The notes beneath the pieces were generated by a model. It worked only from the letters and a program-made list of their open reading frames with translations, was not told where the DNA came from and ran no database searches. Shown in pieces: positions 3,418 through 23,968 of a stretch of DNA of 24,975 nucleotides. Each line of letters begins with the position of its first letter. Within the stretch, counting starts at the first letter, position 1. The stretch is from a virus. The stretch spans positions 1-24,975 of IMG/VR virus record IMGVR_UViG_3300025410_000599. One strand, 5' to 3'. Made by a program: the position numbers and the translations under genes.

Positions 3418-3423
3418 ACTATA
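3418..3423 (-). promoter_or_regulatory. Candidate -10 (TATAGT) for leaderless mRNA of the GT-methyltransferase
   Basis: Reading leftwards, TATAGT (5 of 6 matches to TATAAT) is followed by 7 bases and then the ATG at 3410. No Shine-Dalgarno precedes that ATG. No clear -35 is seen. The same spacing recurs at seven other genes in the window. Confidence 0.45.
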
Positions 3424-4516
3424 GACTCTTGCGACTCTCCAAAGTTGCCCGTGCTTTGATGATTTCAGCATCGTACTTGCGTGGGTTATCCGATACTTGT
3501 GCGGCCATCTTTAGGTGAGCCAATGCCTTTTCGTTCTCGCCCATCTGGGCGTAAGCGTAAGCGATTCCTGCGTAGGGCGCATCGTCATACACCATCGGGT
3601 TTATCGGCCTACCATCGTGGTTCTTCTTTGCCCCGAGTGCGCCTCGCAAGAAAGGGATTGACTTGGAGAACTGCCCTGCTCGTATGTGCATATCAGCAAC
3701 CAGCATCCAAGCCTCGGGCGAGCTCGGGTCGTAGGCGATGGCGTTGAGCCACGATTGGAGAGTTAGGGCGAAGTTACCGATTGCGGCGTGACAATGCCCC
3801 ATATCTAGCAAGGCTTCGTACTTCTCCCAGTTGTCTCCCGACACTTTTAGGAAATCAGCAAACTGTAAGACCGCATCGTCGTAACGCCCCACGTCACGAA
3901 GTTCTCGAGCCCGATACAACTTCGTTCGGGAAGAGTTGTCACCATCGGCAATCATCTGGTCGAGGATGCGTAGGTTTCGCTTCGCACCGTTCTCTCTATC
4001 GGTATAGGGGTCCTCAATCACCACGTCATCAAGAACGATGTATCGGGGGTTCTGGCAAGAAAGAACCTCGTGAACCCGATTCTCCCAATATGGGTTTGCT
4101 TTCATACGAGCAATACGAGGAAAAATGGAGGTTACTCGTGGGTTTCCCCACTCGTCGAGGAGGCGATTCGTGTGTATCCAAACTAAATCAGTTGTTTCAG
4201 TTAGGAACCAGTCGGCTTTCTTTAGTTCCCGTAATTTGGATAGGTTTTCGGGTTTCAGCACATCTCCTGTATCTAGCCACATCGCCCAGTCGCACGTTAC
4301 TTTGGAAAGGGCGTAGTTCCGGGCGGCCGAAAAGTCGTCAATCCACTCGAACTCATACGTTTCAGCACCGAAGTCTTTGGCTACTTCAAGGGTCGCATCT
4401 CTTGAGCCCGTGTCAACAACAACTATCTGGTCGAATAGCCCTTTTACGGATTCCAAAGTGCGGCATAGGGTTTCTTCCGAATCTCGGGCGATTATGTGTA
4501 AGGCGAGGGTCTTCAC
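3419..4516 (-). CDS. Family 2 glycosyltransferase with TPR-like C-terminus
   Basis: A 365-residue protein. The N-terminal half is a GT-A family 2 domain of the WaaE/SunS-like type: HIIARDSEETLCRTLESV, VDTGSRD at 34-40, the conserved EWIDDFSAARNYAL, and WLDTGD at 80-85, where the usual metal-binding DxD is written DTGD. From about residue 200 to 355 it is helical with TPR-like repeats (YDDAVLQFADFLK, GNFALTLQSWLNAIAYDPSSPEAWMLVADM, GENEKALAHLKMA). Start is GTG at 4516, overlapping the preceding gene by GTGA, so translation is coupled. It is a clear paralogue of the next glycosyltransferase upstream. It probably works with its two neighbours on a phage surface protein or a host glycan; the acceptor cannot be told from sequence. 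Confidence 0.85.
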   Translation of the reverse strand: MKTLALHIIARDSEETLCRTLESVKGLFDQIVVVDTGSRDATLEVAKDFGAETYEFEWIDDFSAARNYALSKVTCDWAMWLDTGDVLKPENLSKLRELKKADWFLTETTDLVWIHTNRLLDEWGNPRVTSIFPRIARMKANPYWENRVHEVLSCQNPRYIVLDDVVIEDPYTDRENGAKRNLRILDQMIADGDNSSRTKLYRARELRDVGRYDDAVLQFADFLKVSGDNWEKYEALLDMGHCHAAIGNFALTLQSWLNAIAYDPSSPEAWMLVADMHIRAGQFSKSIPFLRGALGAKKNHDGRPINPMVYDDAPYAGIAYAYAQMGENEKALAHLKMAAQVSDNPRKYDAEIIKARATLESRKSL

Positions 4517-5601
4517 TTTCCCTCACTTTTGGGAACCGAAGCGATAATTCTCTCCCTTACGCCCGGAGGGGCTTCGGCAATAGCCAAGGCAAAGAACTGG
4601 TTTGCCAAATCCATTTCACCTAAAGCAAGGTAGCAATTGGCAAGTCGCTCAAGGGGTTGATAGGTGTGGTGGGGAACGATTGCTACCCACGCAGGTTGCT
4701 TGCGATTGTCACCCGAAGCCGCTTGGTAGAAAGGAATCGCCTTACGCCAATTGCCGACCTCGTATTCGATTTCACCTAAGAGGAAGAATGGAGTCGGGAG
4801 TTCGGGGAGGTGTGCCGATGCCTTGAGTAGCATCTCCTTTTGCTTCTCGACGATGCCGAGTTTTCCAAAAGACCGACCGACTACCAAATAGTAATCACCA
4901 GCCGAACCAGAATCCAATTCGAGTTCGCCAATCTTGTCGGCATCTACTACCGCTTCCTCGTAACGTTCCAAGAGTTCCAACTCACGAGCTCGTAGATACT
5001 TGTATCGGTCGTGATTTACGTCATTTATCGCTAGATACTTCTCAATGATGCGGAGGTTTCTATCGGTGGCAACGGACAGTTGCCCCTCGGGGTCATCAAC
5101 AATGAGTCCACGCTCAACGTGGGATATCGGCTCACCAACCACCGGGGCCTCGTGAATCGGCATAATCCAATTGGGGTCTGCTGATTTGCGAATGAGGCGT
5201 GGCGTGGCGTGAAGCGTGTAGACGTTTCCAAACTCGTCATAGTTTCTATTGAGGAAGCCAACGATGTAGTTGACCGTCGAGTTTGGGTCGGTCATAACGG
5301 GTTGCTCTCGTATCCACTCGAATCGAGCGATTGACTCGGGGGTTAGAACATCACCAGCATCAAACCAAGTGACCCAATCGCCCGTTGTCTTGCTTAGGGC
5401 GTAGTTACGAGCCGCCGAGAAGTCATCGTTCCACTCGTAGTCAAAGACCTGCGCGCCGTACATTTCAGCAACGGCTTTCGTTCCATCCGTGCTTCCGGTG
5501 TCAACGATAATCATCTCGTCAACAAACGATTTGACGGAGTTTAGGGTTCTGCCCAACTTGCTCTCGGCGTTGCGAACAATCATATGCAACGAGATTCGCA
5601 C
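4513..5601 (-). CDS. Family 2 glycosyltransferase with TPR-like C-terminus
   Basis: A 362-residue paralogue of the neighbouring glycosyltransferase. I place the start at the GTG at 5601 (MRISLHMIVRNAESK) because AAAGGA lies about 4 bases upstream and the protein then begins at the first strand of the GT-A fold; longer starts to 5628 would overlap the tail-fibre stop and add nine residues without family likeness. Motifs: VDTGSTDG at 33-40, EWNDDFSAARNYAL, and WFDAGD at 79-84 in the metal site. The C-terminal half carries TPR-like helices (YEEAVVDADKIGELELD, GNWRKAIPFYQAASG, ALGEMDLANQFFALAIAEAP). It is the first gene after the tail fibre, 13 bases past its stop, which suggests that the glycosylation cluster and the fibre are expressed together. 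Confidence 0.85.
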   Translation of the reverse strand: MRISLHMIVRNAESKLGRTLNSVKSFVDEMIIVDTGSTDGTKAVAEMYGAQVFDYEWNDDFSAARNYALSKTTGDWVTWFDAGDVLTPESIARFEWIREQPVMTDPNSTVNYIVGFLNRNYDEFGNVYTLHATPRLIRKSADPNWIMPIHEAPVVGEPISHVERGLIVDDPEGQLSVATDRNLRIIEKYLAINDVNHDRYKYLRARELELLERYEEAVVDADKIGELELDSGSAGDYYLVVGRSFGKLGIVEKQKEMLLKASAHLPELPTPFFLLGEIEYEVGNWRKAIPFYQAASGDNRKQPAWVAIVPHHTYQPLERLANCYLALGEMDLANQFFALAIAEAPPGVRERIIASVPKSEGK

Positions 5602-5614
5602 GGGGTTCCTTTGT

Positions 5615-8600
5615 TTAGGCAGCACCAAGCATCATAATCTGAGCGAGGGGGTTGATGCTTAGGCCCGTAATGGTGGTCGGGAGTGACGAACCCGTAGTTG
5701 ACTGACCACGCAAGGTGAGAGTTCCTGTTGTTGCTGTTGCGGGTCCAAAGTTGGTGTAGTTGTTTATCGGAGTAGCCAAAAGGGTACAAGCGGTACTTGC
5801 GTAAACTCCAATAAAGTACGCACTCGGACCCGTAATCGTGACCTGCGACGTTAGGGTTCCCGTAACCAAACCAGTAGAGGTGTTCGCTACGGCGGTCGTT
5901 ACGCCCAATCGGGTCGCGTAGTTATAGATTGCGAACGTTATGGTTCCGCCAGAACCCGCAGTGGTGATGTAGGCGTAGATGTTGTTGAGGGTCGTTCCGC
6001 CAGTGAGCTCGGCCGCAAAGTAGTAAACGCTTGTGCTCGCAAGGGCAAAGGTACTCGAAGCAGTGGTGGGGTCAGCAGTCCACGTCTTTAGGGCGTTTAC
6101 TGATGGCGAGAATGCTGGTGGGGATGGACTCCAAGAGGGCAAACTCACACCAGTAGATGTAAGAACCGCACCAGTGGTTCCCGCAGAAATCCAACTAAGC
6201 GAGCTCGAAAGGCCAGTGGCAAGTAACGCACCCGTCGCACCCGCACTTAGCCAAGCGGTGTTATTCGAAGATGGGTTGTAGAGAAGAGAACCCGTAGTAC
6301 CTGCGGCGAGGGGGAGATACGTCGAGGTTGACGTGCTGTAGTAAAGAATCGCACCATTACCCGGAACCGTTGATATTCCCGTGCCACCGTTGGCGACCGG
6401 CAAAATACCCGTAACGCCCGTGGTCAATGGAATGTTGGTGAACGTATTGTTCGCACCACTCATTGTCTTGTTCGTCAACGTTGCGGCGATGGCGTTCGCT
6501 ACGAGAGTGTCCGTGTTGGTTGTGCTAGAGGGCAGGTAGAAAGTTTGGCTGTTGCTACCGCTATTGAACGTCAGGCTGGCGGTGTAGCCATTTCCCAAAT
6601 TGTCGTTGATGGTAATGGGCGCATTGGTTGCGTTGTAGGTGACAAGACCGCTACCGAACGAGGCAGGGGTGGCTCCGCCGAAACTAGGCCCGTTTCCATA
6701 GACAATCGGGCCTGAACCCGTCACTTGGCTTGCGCTAAAATACCAAATACCGTTGAGGAAGATGAACTGTGTGGTAACGCCACTCTGAACCTGAACCGAA
6801 GTTAGACCCGTGGTTGTGTTGACGTATCCCTGCTCTTGGGTAAAAGTGTTGGTTCCGCCACGAGCAACGGTCGCATTAGCCGTGATGTAGTTGGCGACGG
6901 TGTTGATTGTTCCGTTTGCGGGCGACGTTGGAAGCGTGATGGTAAAGCCCGACGAACCCGTAAGAATCGTGTATTCACCAGCAGCGGCCGTACCAGCACC
7001 CGTGCGGAGAGTCGCAGAAACCGTGGCGGTAGGCGATGCTGTAGAGGTTGCAGTGATTCGACCCTTACCGTCAATCGTTAGGACTGGAATAGCCGTAGCC
7101 GAGCCGACCGTAGAAGAGCCGGAGTATGCCGTTGCGAGGGTGAGTGCGCCCGAGCTCGCCAACGTAGCATCACCAGAAACTGCTTGGGTTCCCCACGAAC
7201 TTCCGTTTGATACGAGGATGTTGCCCGATGCTGGGGTTCCGCCTTGAACGCCGATGCCTTGGATGCCAGAGACACGAGGAGAAGAAGACGATGAGCCCGT
7301 TCCTGCGAGGTCGCCTACGCCATACTGCGCGCCGCCAAGTGCTGATAAGGCTTGTGCGCCAGTGTTCGCTTGCGTTCCGGTTCCACCTTGTTGCAGGCCC
7401 AAAACACCAGCCGTAACGTGGGCAACACTCGTGACCTGAACAACGCCCGAGCTCGAGATTGTCGCATCTCCACTAATACCTTGGATGCCCCACTGGGTTC
7501 CGTTGTAGATGATTTGCTGACCAGAGGCAGTCGGGTTGTTTCCAACGAGTGCGCCCTGAATGTAGTTTTGTGGGCCGGCCGCACCCGTGTTACCTTGATA
7601 CCCTTGGTTGCCTTGGTATCCCTGATACCCCTGTGTACCTTGGTTTCCTTGCGTACCTTGTGTTCCCTGCGCGCCATTACCCGTAGTGAGAAGCGTGGCG
7701 GAGAGGATGGTGTTTTGGTACGAACTGCTACCGACAACTTGCTGGCTAGTCGTGTTTGATGTGTAGGCGGTGAGGTAGATGTAGTCAGTTGAGCCGTTGA
7801 AGTAAACGATTTTGGAACCGTTCACCGTTTGAGGGTTGCTTGTGTTTACTGTTGCACCAACAATCAGCAGCGTCGTACCAGCCGAGTTGTGTAACTGAAT
7901 GTTGGTCTGACCCGTTTGACCACTTGTACCCGTCTGCCACTCGACGGCGAAGTCAATGAGGTAGTAACCAGCGATGGTCGGTTGGAAGTGGTAGTTGGGT
8001 GAACCAGACCACCACGATTGAGGGTCAGATGTAGCCGTGAACTGAATGGTCTGGTCAGAGCCGTTGGTGATTGTCTGGTTGGTTCCTAGTGCGGCAACCG
8101 TGACGTACTGACTTGCGGTAAGCAAACCACCCTGCGTACCCTGATAGCCCTGTGTTCCCTGTGAACCAGTTGCCCCCTGATATCCCTGCGTACCCTGTGC
8201 GCCCGTGCTTCCTGCCACACCTTGATAGCCCTGATATCCCTGTGGCCCTTGAGAACCAGTAGAACCCTGTGCGCCAGTAGAACCCTGCGAACCCGTCGCA
8301 CCTTGATAACCCTGAACACCCTGTGTTCCCTGCGTACCTTGAGCTCCCGTTGAGCCTTGCGACCCCGTAGAGCCTTGTACGCCTTGATACCCTTGAGTTC
8401 CTTGGGAGCCAGTAACACCTTGATACCCTTGCGTACCTTGGCTACCCGTGTTCCCTTGATAGCCCTGACTTCCTTGTGCGCCTGTTACGCCTTGGTATCC
8501 TTGAGTTCCTTGGCTACCCGTCGAACCTTGGTATCCCTGTGTTCCTTGAACGCCCTGCGTTCCTTGGAATCCTTGAGTGCCTTGGAATCCTTGATTACCC

Positions 8601-12152: not shown

Positions 12153-12623
12153 TTACCAGCCGTAGCGTGACTGCAAACTATCGGGTTTTACGGCGCGGTC
12201 AATAATCAGCACACCGTCGAGATGGTCGAGCTCGTGTTGGAAGACTTGCGCCAACTCCCCTCGTGCCTCTACCCTGATTTCTTTTCCATCGAGGTCGTAG
12301 CCCGTAAGAACACAAGTCGTGCTTCGCTCAATCTGGCAAATGCGATTTGGAACCGACAAGCAACTCTCTGGTGCGGTTTCTATTTCAGCGCCGAGCGAAA
12401 GAACTGGGTTGATGACCACTTCGTAAAAGCCCGTATTGTCGGCATCGTAGATAAATACGCTCTTGGTAATGCCGATTTGGTTTGCCGTGATTGCCGACCC
12501 GCCGTGCCGATACATAACCTCGGCCATATCTTGAGCAAGGAGTGCGATGCTACGGTCTATTGCCGTTACGGGTCTAACCGGGAGGGCTAAAACCGCATCC
12601 GGGAAGTGGCGTAGACCGAGCAT
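12153..12623 (-). CDS. def: Peptide deformylase
   Basis: A 156-residue peptide deformylase that removes the formyl group from the initiator methionine of nascent proteins. All three metal-site motifs are present: GSAITANQIG (42-51, motif 1), ESCLS (86-90, motif 2 with the cysteine ligand) and QHELDH (129-134, motif 3 with two histidine ligands and the catalytic glutamate). The ATG at 12623 (MLGLRHFPDAVL) lies one base after the TGA of the small Cys-rich gene, and the protein then begins as the family does; longer in-frame extensions overlap that gene. Its short length is typical of phage deformylases known from marine and freshwater phages. In motif 2 a serine replaces the usual glycine (ESCLS for EGCLS), which some class II and III enzymes tolerate. 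Translation is probably coupled to the upstream gene. Confidence 0.93.
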   Translation of the reverse strand: MLGLRHFPDAVLALPVRPVTAIDRSIALLAQDMAEVMYRHGGSAITANQIGITKSVFIYDADNTGFYEVVINPVLSLGAEIETAPESCLSVPNRICQIERSTTCVLTGYDLDGKEIRVEARGELAQVFQHELDHLDGVLIIDRAVKPDSLQSRYGW

Positions 12624-12624
12624 T

Positions 12625-12795
12625 TCAGCAGTTGCAGTTACAGTTGCCACCGCACTTCTTGGCGACAATCGTTTCGGTAACGTCGAGCGTGGTTTCGATA
12701 TTGGAAACGTTCCCAGAGACAGAAACGAGTCGGGGCATCTTGCCAGTCGAACTCGGGTGGGCGGCGATGCTTTCAGCAATACTACGGTCGGTCAT
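12625..12795 (-). CDS. Small protein with Cys-rich C-terminus (56 aa)
   Basis: An ORF from ATG at 12795 (MTDRSIAESIAAHPSSTG) to TGA at 12625. It overlaps the end of the DUF1003 gene by 14 bases, and the deformylase ATG follows its stop after a single base, so it fills the gap exactly and is very likely translated. The last nine residues are CGGNCNCNC directly before the stop: four cysteines in nine residues, preceded by KK. This suggests a metal-binding or thiol tail. The middle (RLVSVSGNVSNIETTLDVTETIV) looks like a beta strand pair. I recognise no family. Alternatives are a leader-type peptide or a small structural add-on. A GAACGAA stretch upstream is at best a weak ribosome binding site. 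Confidence 0.65.
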   Translation of the reverse strand: MTDRSIAESIAAHPSSTGKMPRLVSVSGNVSNIETTLDVTETIVAKKCGGNCNCNC

Positions 12796-21293: not shown

Positions 21294-21388
21294 TTCTTCT
21301 CAATGGGCTTCTTGCGAGATTCGTAAACGTCTTCTCGCCACGTTGCCCACTTCTCTTTGGCCGTGATGCTCGGTCGCACTTGCTTCAT
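21266..21388 (-). CDS. Trp/Lys-rich 40-aa peptide
   Basis: ATG at 21388 overlaps the stop of the last methyltransferase ORF by ATGA and has AGGGAGAG about 4 bases upstream, a better ribosome binding site than most genes here. The peptide has about ten lysines, four arginines and five tryptophans, ends KKWWAKWLKK, and is strongly basic. Possible roles are nucleic-acid binding or membrane activity; neither can be shown. Overlap, a strong ribosome site and the compact operon support it as real. Confidence 0.6.
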   Translation of the reverse strand: MKQVRPSITAKEKWATWREDVYESRKKPIEKKWWAKWLKK

Positions 21389-21702
21389 TGGCTCTCCCTT
21401 TGGTGAATCTCAACGATTCCTGCGATTACCCAGTTCACTACGGGAACCGCTACGGCATTACCCATCTCCTTGTACCGATTGGTGTCGGAGTTGATGTTTG
21501 TCCACCCACGAGGAAAGCCCTGTAGCGACTCGCACTCCTCTGGCGTGATTCGACGTACTCTCGTTTCAGCACTACGGACTGGAACGTTTCCGCCACCCGT
21601 TCCCATAAAAGCAAGGAGAGTCGGGGATACGGCTTCGTGGACTCGCATTTCACCAGTACGGCGATTTGCTTCATAGACCGTGTTGTTATCTAGCGTGGAC
21701 AC
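21385..21702 (-). CDS. C5-methyltransferase C-terminal fragment 3 (motifs IX-X)
   Basis: A 105-residue protein. I choose GTG 21702 because GAGGGG lies 7 bases upstream; the TTG at 21708 would be only one base from it. It starts MSTLDNNTVYEANRRTG, then has one target-recognition-like segment (SPTLLAFMGTGGGNVPVR, about 26-43), motif IX (RRITPEECESLQGFP, 50-64) and motif X (EMGNAVAVPVV, 79-89). These are the parts that contact DNA and complete the SAM pocket in C5 methyltransferases. There are no catalytic motifs, so alone it cannot methylate. It overlaps fragment 2 by 17 bases. It is a diverged paralogue of fragments 1 and 2, not a copy. Confidence 0.85.
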   Translation of the reverse strand: MSTLDNNTVYEANRRTGEMRVHEAVSPTLLAFMGTGGGNVPVRSAETRVRRITPEECESLQGFPRGWTNINSDTNRYKEMGNAVAVPVVNWVIAGIVEIHQRESQ

Positions 21703-22000
21703 TGACAATCCCCTCGATTACCCAATCAACAACTGGAACTGCAACTGCGTTCCCCATTTGCTTGTAGCGATAGCGGTCAATCTGCCCGTTGTCAGTCCAC
21801 CCAATCGGAAAGCCTTGTAACGCCTCGTACTCGCTAGGCGTGAGTCGGCGTAGTTGGGGCTTGGTGGCAAACACTTGGGCGTGGTGGCTCTGCACACTCG
21901 GTTGGTGTGCTGAAACCGTGCCAGAAACCTCTACGGGCGTGGCACTAAAGGTATTTGCCTTGGCATCCTCACGGATTGAGTAGGCAAGTGCGTCAGCCAC
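21686..22000 (-). CDS. C5-methyltransferase C-terminal fragment 2 (motifs IX-X)
   Basis: A 104-residue protein, GTG start at 22000 overlapping fragment 1 by 8 bases. Residues 5-44 (LAYSIREDAKANTFSATPVEV, then SVQSHHAQVF) are a target-recognition-type segment that I know from intact phage cytosine methyltransferases, where it precedes motif IX. Here motif IX is RRLTPSEYEALQGFP (51-65) and motif X QMGNAVAVPVV (81-91). The catalytic half is missing, and the frame is intact. Either it associates with the upstream catalytic ORF or it is a relic kept by coupling. Confidence 0.87.
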   Translation of the reverse strand: MADALAYSIREDAKANTFSATPVEVSGTVSAHQPSVQSHHAQVFATKPQLRRLTPSEYEALQGFPIGWTDNGQIDRYRYKQMGNAVAVPVVDWVIEGIVSVHAR

Positions 22001-22811
22001 GGTTCTGAATACCCACGATTCCGGCGATTACCCACTCCACGACTGGTATGGCGACCGCATTACCCATCTGCTTGTATCGGTGCGTGTTGGCTTGTTCCTT
22101 GCCATCAGCACGGAGAAGAGTGTGGTTGTCGGGGAAACCCTGTAGTCGCTCGCACTCCATTGGGGTAAGGCGACGAACGACCGACTCGGTACGAACGGCG
22201 GGATATCCCTGTCCGGGCTTGCCACCGCCCGTTGCGAGTGCGTTCGTCACGTCAACCTCTCGGATTTCGGCGCGCTGATTCTCGACCACCGCTTTAGGGG
22301 TGAGGATGTTGTGTCGGTTGTTATCCACAGTTCTTGCCACCGCATCCGTTCGGTACACACGATATGGCTGTGGCATTTCGGGCCACGGCGTTAGCGAACC
22401 CACTTCGGAGTTGTTCTCCATTTCAGCACCAGCGCTTTCTTCTATAAGGATGAGATGGCGATTGTTGTCAACCGTTCTCGTTGGGGTATCCGTGCGATAG
22501 ACCATATTTGCTTGACCCATTTCGGGCCACGGGGTCAAGTTGCCCGTTGGGGTTGCCTCTACATCGTAAAACGTTGCGAGTTGGTTATCGCCCATATGAG
22601 CTCGGAGGGTTGGGGCTATTTCAGCAGGGTCGTGACCCTCGATTCGACTCAACGCACCCGGCTCAAAGACTTGAGGGTTCTGGGGAACCATAACCGAAGC
22701 ACCGCCCGTAGCCGTAAGGGTGTACGAGGGGTCGCCCGGATTTCCGATGCCCAAACCGTTCTGCTTCTTCTCTAGGCCGCGCCCGTCTTGGATTGGAATT
22801 GGCTCACTCAT
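21993..22811 (-). CDS. C5-methyltransferase C-terminal fragment 1 (several recognition segments plus motifs IX-X)
   Basis: A 272-residue protein from ATG 22811 (MSEPIPIQDG), overlapping the catalytic ORF by 8 bases; an upstream ATG at 22883 is a frame extension inside that ORF. Recognition-type segments with the 'TL/TxTA' core lie at about 28-43 (YTLTATGGASVMV), 67-85 (PTLRAHMGDN), 109-124, 157-171 and 189-207. Residues 90-119 and 138-168 are an internal duplication (LTPWPEM...VYRTD...RTVDNNRH in both). Motif IX is RRLTPMECERLQGFPD (213-228) and motif X QMGNAVAIPVV (248-258). No motif I, IV, VI or VIII is present. This is the natural partner of the catalytic ORF, as in the split enzymes M.AquI and M.EcoHK31I. 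Confidence 0.88.
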   Translation of the reverse strand: MSEPIPIQDGRGLEKKQNGLGIGNPGDPSYTLTATGGASVMVPQNPQVFEPGALSRIEGHDPAEIAPTLRAHMGDNQLATFYDVEATPTGNLTPWPEMGQANMVYRTDTPTRTVDNNRHLILIEESAGAEMENNSEVGSLTPWPEMPQPYRVYRTDAVARTVDNNRHNILTPKAVVENQRAEIREVDVTNALATGGGKPGQGYPAVRTESVVRRLTPMECERLQGFPDNHTLLRADGKEQANTHRYKQMGNAVAIPVVEWVIAGIVGIQNRG

Positions 22812-23955
22812 CTTCGCCCGTTTCAGCAAAGGTCGTGTGGACAGAAACCATTGGGATTCCAAGGCCGATGAAGTCACTCCCACTCGCCGTGACGGTCGGG
22901 GCGATACCCTCTCCGTACATTGAGTTGACTCGACGTTCTACGACTACGTTCGCACCGGCTCGCTTGAAGTCGGTGGCAGTTAGCGTTCCGAATGGGGGCG
23001 AATCAGCATACCCACTAAAGTTCCCACCCGAATAAGCCGATTGCTCGACAACAATAAAGTCCTCTTGGCTCATAGATGCCCGAAGCGTGTTTAGCCCCTC
23101 GGCGTATTGGGCGAAGTCACTCTTAGAAAAAGGGATGGTCGAGCTCTCGTCAGCGACGGGCTCTCCCTCCTCTAACGGCTCAAACGCATATGGCGTGTTA
23201 TTGCTACCCGTTGAGGCGAGCAAAGTGGTTGACGTTTCAGCAACTCGCAAGTCGCCGCGCTGGTTCTGCGTGACTACTGCGGGTCGGGCGTGTAGCCCTC
23301 GGCCTGCTTCTCCAAGGCTGTCTGTAGTGCTACTGGCAAGGTCTTCCCACGCCGCTTCGCTCTCGCCAGAATCCCCGCACACGCTTTCGCGCTCAAATAA
23401 TACTTCTGTGGCACTTCGCCAGTCTCCAGCACGTCGGCCAACGATGAAGACGCGCCGCCTGCGCTGGGGAACTCCGAAGTATTGAGCATCCAACACCCGC
23501 CAACTGACGCCGTACCCGAGTTCGACCAACGTGGCGACAACGCTTCCCATATCTGCCCCTCCGTTACTGGAAAGAAGACCGGGGACGTTTTCGAGGACGA
23601 ACCACTCTGGTTGGACTTCTTCGATGATGCGCGCGACTTCGTAGAAGAGGCCGCTTCTCTTTCCAGCCAGCCCTGCACGTCTTCCGGCAACGGAAAGGTC
23701 TTGGCAGGGGAATCCTCCGACAAGGATTCCGTTTCGTGGAACAAAGCCTGCTGAAATAAGTTGCTCACCTGTTACCTCCGTAACATCGTTGAATAGTTGG
23801 GTGTCTGGGAACTGCTTTGCCAAAACCGCTTGCGCGTGTTTGTCAATCTCTACTGCCGCCACGACTTTCACGCCGTTGCGTTCGAGAGCAAGGTCGAAAC
23901 CCCCCACGCCCGCAAAGAGAGAAACCGCAGTCATCTGATTGGTTTCGTTTGCCAT
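22804..23955 (-). CDS. C5-cytosine DNA methyltransferase, catalytic part (motifs I-VIII)
   Basis: A 383-residue protein. I start it at ATG 23955 (MANETNQMTAVSLF) because a TATGAT -10 lies 7 bases upstream; ATGs at 23964 and 23967 overlap that hexamer. It transfers methyl groups from SAM to C5 of cytosine. Motif I FAGVGGFD (14-21), motif IV GGFPCQDLS (80-88, catalytic Cys84), motif VI VLENVPG (120-126) and motif VIII QRRRRVF (164-170) are all intact. After residue 190 comes a variable region with four 'TL/TV-x-A' segments (TTLLASTG, NTLRASMS, GTLTATDF, PTVTASGS). Motifs IX and X are missing; the ORF ends at 22804 and these motifs occur in the three following ORFs. No restriction enzyme gene is near, so it is probably an orphan, protective phage methyltransferase. 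Confidence 0.93.
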   Translation of the reverse strand: MANETNQMTAVSLFAGVGGFDLALERNGVKVVAAVEIDKHAQAVLAKQFPDTQLFNDVTEVTGEQLISAGFVPRNGILVGGFPCQDLSVAGRRAGLAGKRSGLFYEVARIIEEVQPEWFVLENVPGLLSSNGGADMGSVVATLVELGYGVSWRVLDAQYFGVPQRRRRVFIVGRRAGDWRSATEVLFERESVCGDSGESEAAWEDLASSTTDSLGEAGRGLHARPAVVTQNQRGDLRVAETSTTLLASTGSNNTPYAFEPLEEGEPVADESSTIPFSKSDFAQYAEGLNTLRASMSQEDFIVVEQSAYSGGNFSGYADSPPFGTLTATDFKRAGANVVVERRVNSMYGEGIAPTVTASGSDFIGLGIPMVSVHTTFAETGEDE

Positions 23956-23968
23956 AGGACACATCATA
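23956..23968 (-). promoter_or_regulatory. Candidate -10 (TATGAT) for the methyltransferase operon
   Basis: Leftward TATGAT (23968-23963, 5 of 6 matches) is followed after 7 bases by the ATG at 23955, with no Shine-Dalgarno. No clear -35 is seen. A copy of the abundant octamer TGCTGAAA lies 28 bases further upstream (23996-24003), in the short intergenic gap. Confidence 0.45.

Follow-up and report, generated by a model that had tools for sequence, protein, structure and literature searches.

The closest described relatives of the locus reported here are two-chain C5 cytosine methyltransferases. In M.AquI (CYCGRG), one chain carries motifs I to VIII and part of the variable region, and the other carries the rest of that region together with motifs IX and X (PMC3404938). 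M.EcoHK31I (YGGCCR) is divided differently: its large chain retains motif X, and of motifs IX and X the small chain has only IX (PMC3404938). Fragment complementation is also known for several monomeric C5 methyltransferases, whose inactive halves can reassemble (PMC3404938). This work describes a locus in IMG/VR record IMGVR_UViG_3300025410_000599, a 24,975-base virus fragment from a freshwater phage that is referred to at its full length as the window. On its minus strand, the window is predicted to encode a split C5 methyltransferase of the M.AquI layout, consisting of one catalytic chain (alpha) followed by three intact small chains (beta1, beta2, and beta3, in this order). A further predicted gene lies nested in the +1 frame of alpha.

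Alpha contains motifs I to VIII, including motif I, the PCQ of motif IV, the ENV of motif VI, and the QRRRR of motif VIII, and lacks motifs IX and X; past motif VIII, it continues into a tail of recognition-like stretches. Its match to PF00145 is confined to positions 1 to 165 of the 324-position profile (E value of 1.5e-56). The betas match only at about positions 245 to 322 (E values of 1e-11, 7e-11, and 2e-12 for beta1, beta2, and beta3, respectively), and NCBIfam TIGR00675 is divided between alpha and the betas in the same way. Such a partition of the C5-methyltransferase profile across open reading frames (ORFs) is far beyond chance. Most of beta1 is a run of about five short target-recognition-like stretches, after which come motif IX (RRLTPMECERLQGFP) and motif X (GNAVAIPVV). 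Beta2 and beta3 each have a single recognition stretch (YSIREDAKANTFSATP...SHHAQVF and YEANRRTGE...MGTGGGNVP, respectively) ahead of motifs IX and X. As in M.AquI, the large chain ends without motifs IX and X, and each small chain joins a distal variable region to both of these motifs, with no catalytic motif detected in any beta by PF00145 or by reading of the sequence.

The initial annotation had reported a catalytic ORF at 23955-22804 with motifs I, IV, VI, and VIII but neither IX nor X, three downstream ORFs with motifs IX and X and no catalytic motifs, and overlaps of 8, 8, and 17 bases; all of this was reproduced when the ORFs were called anew, the last overlap becoming 23 bases if beta3 starts at TTG. 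It had missed the nested gene and the fact that beta1 is mostly recognition array. Of the two precedents it offered, M.AquI holds as the same layout, while M.EcoHK31I is the weaker, since the large chain of that enzyme keeps motif X (PMC3404938), whereas both IX and X lie in the betas here. The overlaps ATGAGTGA and GTGGCTGA have the usual form of translational coupling, which would link alpha to beta1 and beta1 to beta2.

All three betas are under purifying selection. Gene order and reading frames are kept in the independent contigs L001, L002, L083, and L084, so that the frameshifts in related phages contemplated by the initial annotation did not materialize. In comparisons with relatives using NG86, the ratio of nonsynonymous to synonymous divergence (dN/dS) was 0.06 to 0.17 for beta1, 0.06 to 0.14 for beta2, and 0.14 to 0.19 for beta3. 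Several of the dS estimates lie above 1 and lack precision, but the low-divergence pair of the window and L001 still gives ratios of 0.14 to 0.17, and the result is therefore robust to that imprecision. The IX/X parts of the three betas score 98, 94, and 85 bits, within the range of fused enzymes. Neither beta2 (104 amino acids) nor beta3 (105 to 107 amino acids) is too short for a beta, because sole betas exist down to 91 amino acids (L107). L083 and L002 are 98.9 to 99.5% identical on both sides of one extra 114-amino-acid beta, present in L083 only; flanked by near-identical DNA, this beta was therefore gained or lost as a unit. Because independent assemblies have the same splits, a frameshift or assembly artifact was ruled out as their source. 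Separately, L002 contains a 63-amino-acid ORF (5870-6061) that consists of recognition-like stretches only, cut off from the alpha tail, and has no catalytic or IX/X motif.

To place the locus among its relatives, IMG/VR was scanned with alpha, each beta, and one further beta, along with 84,980 cellular genomes, and the loci were classified with two custom profiles, A (motifs I to VIII) and B (motifs IX/X). The 305 nonredundant viral arrangements included 131 fused AB enzymes, 124 split A-B pairs, and about 11 with several betas; because the queries bias these counts, they should not be read as prevalences. Split enzymes with one alpha and one beta are thus common, and they are also annotated in Mycobacterium Omegavirus isolates. 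Loci with several betas occur in about six phage lineages (the clade of the window with L001, L002, L083, and L084; L129; L191; L255/L288; L147/L155; and L362/L364), and none was present among 77 loci from cellular genomes. Other arrangements were also observed. In L255 (5010-6530) and in L288, the order is beta-alpha-beta, with a 93-amino-acid beta directly upstream of alpha and another downstream. L147 (3524-4177) and L155 (5360-6013) have a single ORF with two complete recognition-IX/X units in tandem, located downstream of a split alpha and a 799-amino-acid beta. In L165 (Mycobacterium phage Thibault; 1039-2840), an HNH endonuclease gene and another ORF interrupt the split methyltransferase genes, and the nested frame is likewise broken into pieces.

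The recognition stretches of the window recur in other settings. At up to 79% identity, 34 sole betas and 37 fused enzymes contain the beta2 stretch. The beta3 stretch has counterparts in 74 sole betas and 47 fused enzymes, and stretches from beta1 likewise turn up in other betas as well as in fused chains. Within one genome, all betas have a common motif-X type and differ in their recognition stretches. Across split systems, divergence of alpha correlates with divergence of the beta IX/X part (Mantel r of 0.69, reached in 0 of 300 permutations). Both observations are as predicted if all betas dock on one alpha, although in-place duplication would yield them as well. For a fused homologue (L065), the structural model is a single HhaI-like fold in which the catalytic and IX/X parts are confident and the recognition region between them is of low confidence; M.HhaI and M.HaeIII are among its top matches in solved structures.

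The nested gene is a stronger new result at the sequence level than the reading of alpha with multiple betas. It is a predicted gene of 164 codons that starts six bases past a GGAGG element. Of the 377 loci with an alpha, 349 have a homologue, and wherever it overlaps an alpha it occupies the +1 frame. Over this region, 86% of 91 divergent alphas have an open +1 frame, compared with 2.7% after synonymous codon shuffling, a procedure that loses codon-pair context; for the +2 frame, the corresponding values are 0 of 91 and 0.75%. Only 3 of 28 cellular relatives have an open +1 frame; the protein sequence of alpha therefore does not force that frame to be open. Elements resembling a Shine-Dalgarno (SD) sequence lie ahead of 41% of candidate nested starts but of 11% of control codons. 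At least one SD-preceded start is available in 67 of the 78 nested ORFs.

Substitution patterns in alpha point the same way. Between the window and L002, alpha dS is about four-fold below that of the betas (0.35 versus about 1.4 to 1.6), a deficit attributable to the second reading frame that overlaps alpha. In a comparison of 88 disjoint pairs, alpha dS drops three- to five-fold, from 1.48 upstream of the nested start to 0.46 inside the nested gene and 0.29 beyond motif VIII, a part in which alpha dN/dS is about 1.08 and the nested C terminus is constrained; the share of four-fold sites that differ declines in parallel, at 52%, 24%, and 13%, respectively. The window/L001 pair alone has too few changes to separate the nested part from the following part of alpha. 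The stretch with DNA-level similarity to isolate phages (window about 23754 to 23334) falls within the nested gene. These comparisons show that the nested frame is under selection.

AlphaFold2 predicts a confident helical domain at the C terminus of the nested protein (about residues 110 to 156) and a low-confidence N terminus, which is probably disordered; a fold search with this model gave no match in the Protein Data Bank. The protein matches PHROG 16143 (139 positions; E value of 5.3e-9 for the window), as do 91 of 92 members of the nested family. That entry is labeled "DNA methyltransferase," but no catalytic motif is present in the nested proteins, and the label was probably borrowed from the overlapped alpha gene. 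Searches of Pfam, NCBIfam, and PHROGs yielded no function and, in Pfam and NCBIfam, no methyltransferase match. In L348, L350, and L351, the nested +1 ORF runs in frame into a recognition stretch and motifs IX/X, giving one 253-amino-acid nested-beta chain, and L282 has a similar fusion. Natural fusions of this kind make the beta subunit the probable partner of the nested protein. The small chain of M.EcoHK31I is translated in a different frame from the large one, which it overlaps; this may be a precedent and would resemble the fusion in L348. A 597-amino-acid chain in L498 (2504-4297) holds motifs I to VI, nested-protein sequence, recognition stretches, and motifs IX/X all in the same frame, which suggests a frame switch or an unusual fusion. 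The nested ORF is also present in Mycobacterium phages Lucky2013 and Dove and in the dmt gene of P7 and P1, unannotated in each, and the protein has matches in many P1-like plasmids.

Taken as a whole, the architecture is conserved and selected, and one catalytic chain with alternative specificity chains is the most likely reading of it. We consider it probable that the locus encodes an M.AquI-type enzyme whose alternative betas confer several specificities for anti-restriction. Alpha would supply S-adenosylmethionine (SAM) binding and catalysis through motifs I to VIII, and each beta would supply its own recognition stretch or stretches together with motif IX and motif X, whose helix completes the SAM site. 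A single beta would dock on alpha and complete it at any given moment, and the resulting pool of alpha-beta1, alpha-beta2, and alpha-beta3 enzymes would methylate different cytosine sites, thereby protecting phage DNA against several host restriction enzymes. The betas are cassettes that can come and go singly, and the small +1-frame protein would be made from the same message as alpha and probably works with the same enzyme. Several points weigh against this scheme. Duplication in place would also produce a shared motif-X type, which is thus no independent proof of docking; beta2 and beta3 are without the longer recognition array of beta1; the recognition-like tail of alpha itself could alter what each pair reads; and loci with several betas are a small minority of the arrangements seen. 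A PF00145 scan of the 24,975-base record, itself a fragment, gave no match beyond alpha and the three betas, and thus no second alpha for the spare betas.

Other explanations of the extra betas can be weighed against the same data. The initial annotation had suggested as an alternative that the second and third fragments are decaying duplicates, which would leave alpha-beta1 as the only active pair. Both ORFs are indeed short and downstream in the operon, and duplicates are common in phages. Their dN/dS values, frames intact in at least four independent contigs, normal-range motif profile scores, the existence of shorter sole betas in other phages such as L107, and the origin of multi-beta loci in several lineages make decay highly improbable. 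A regulatory or decoy role, in which the extra betas contend with beta1 for alpha and lower or retarget its activity without forming active enzymes of their own, is unlikely but fits their retention of the docking motif X; a decoy would not need recognition stretches that serve elsewhere as the recognition unit of sole betas and fused enzymes. Ribosomal frameshifting could instead join the ORFs into one long multispecific chain, the splits being merely apparent, as the overlap of adjacent frames and the frequency of fused alpha-beta chains with long recognition arrays might suggest. We regard this as very unlikely: in L002 and L083, a gap and a separate 63-amino-acid ORF lie between the alpha stop and beta1, a chain with three successive IX/X units could seat only one motif X at the SAM site, and no slippery sequence is evident by eye at the alpha/beta1 overlap.

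For the nested gene, the competing account is that the +1-frame ORF is untranslated and simply reflects conserved DNA or RNA structure. That the ORF is unannotated in every isolate record looked at would agree with this account, which nevertheless appears quite unlikely. It would have to accommodate an excess of open frames confined to +1 and rare in cellular relatives, the enrichment of SD-preceded starts, an alpha dN/dS of about 1.08 past motif VIII where the nested C terminus is constrained, and in-frame fusions of the nested ORF to a beta. Returning to alpha and its alternative betas, a wider proposal is that they exemplify a modular, multigene class of phage C5 methyltransferases, in which one catalytic chain is served by interchangeable specificity chains gained or lost as cassettes and by a widespread overprinted third component, found even in P1 dmt, that acts with the specificity chain. 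We offer this generalization tentatively, as plausible but short of probable.

The coordinates of the locus are given in Table 1. Elsewhere in the window, neighboring genes include those for major head, head scaffolding, tail-fiber, and exonuclease proteins, which identify the carrier as a tailed phage. Two adjoining genes at 3419-5628 (minus strand) both match the phage beta-1,4-glycosyltransferase family PHROG 13126 and adjoin a tail-fiber-like gene of 2,166 amino acids. A gene at 12153-12779 (minus strand) matches the phage peptide deformylase family PHROG 2890.

Table 1. Features of the split methyltransferase locus, in window coordinates
Feature	Position	Strand	Start or description	Evidence
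Alpha	22804..23967	-	ATG 23967 or ATG 23955; conserved start probably 23955	ORF, sequence, PF00145
Predicted nested gene, +1 frame of alpha	23274..23768	-	GTG 23768, 164 amino acids	Shuffle test, SD-like starts, reduced dS, AlphaFold2, PHROG 16143
SD-like GGAGG ahead of nested GTG	23775..23779	-		Sequence; element recurs before nested start in L002, L007, L075, and L182
Beta1	21993..22811	-	ATG 22811, 272 amino acids	Sequence, PF00145, dN/dS
Beta2	21686..22000	-	GTG 22000, 104 amino acids	Sequence, PF00145, dN/dS
Beta3	21385..21702	-	GTG 21702 (105 amino acids) or TTG 21708 (107 amino acids)	Sequence, PF00145, dN/dS
Alpha/beta1 stop/start overlap	22804..22811	-	ATGAGTGA	Sequence; identical in L001
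Beta1/beta2 stop/start overlap	21993..22000	-	GTGGCTGA	Sequence

Neither one alpha with several betas nor a gene nested in phage C5 methyltransferases was found in the openly licensed literature. The nested gene would be a conserved overlapping gene in one of the best-studied phage enzyme families, apparently overlooked by annotation, phage P1 included. If the proposed use of alternative betas is correct, the locus would be a natural source of parts for programmable split methyltransferases, and it would go some way toward explaining how phages keep up with host restriction. Together with the nested gene, it suggests that phages build DNA-marking enzymes from interchangeable parts.

Compared with known systems, the chains of this locus are laid out as in M.AquI, but the description of M.AquI has a single small chain, compared with three in the window, L001, and L002 and four in L083; the gene nested in alpha is a further difference. 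Mycobacterium phages Lucky2013 (gp113/114) and Dove (107/108) have a homologous alpha with a nested +1 ORF and an adjoining beta, but one beta only. Multispecific phage C5 methyltransferases of the SPR/phi3T kind are single chains in which several interchangeable recognition stretches, between motifs VIII and IX, share one catalytic core. In the window, such stretches are instead spread over four chains, each beta with its own motifs IX/X. Type I systems with several HsdS genes pair one modification subunit with alternative specificity subunits. If alpha works with every beta, the locus would be the cytosine-methylation counterpart of these alternative HsdS subunits, and a new specificity could be acquired by adding a gene of about 100 codons with the catalytic part untouched. 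The two differ in that Type I systems methylate adenine and use unrelated proteins, while here the beta would also complete the cofactor site.
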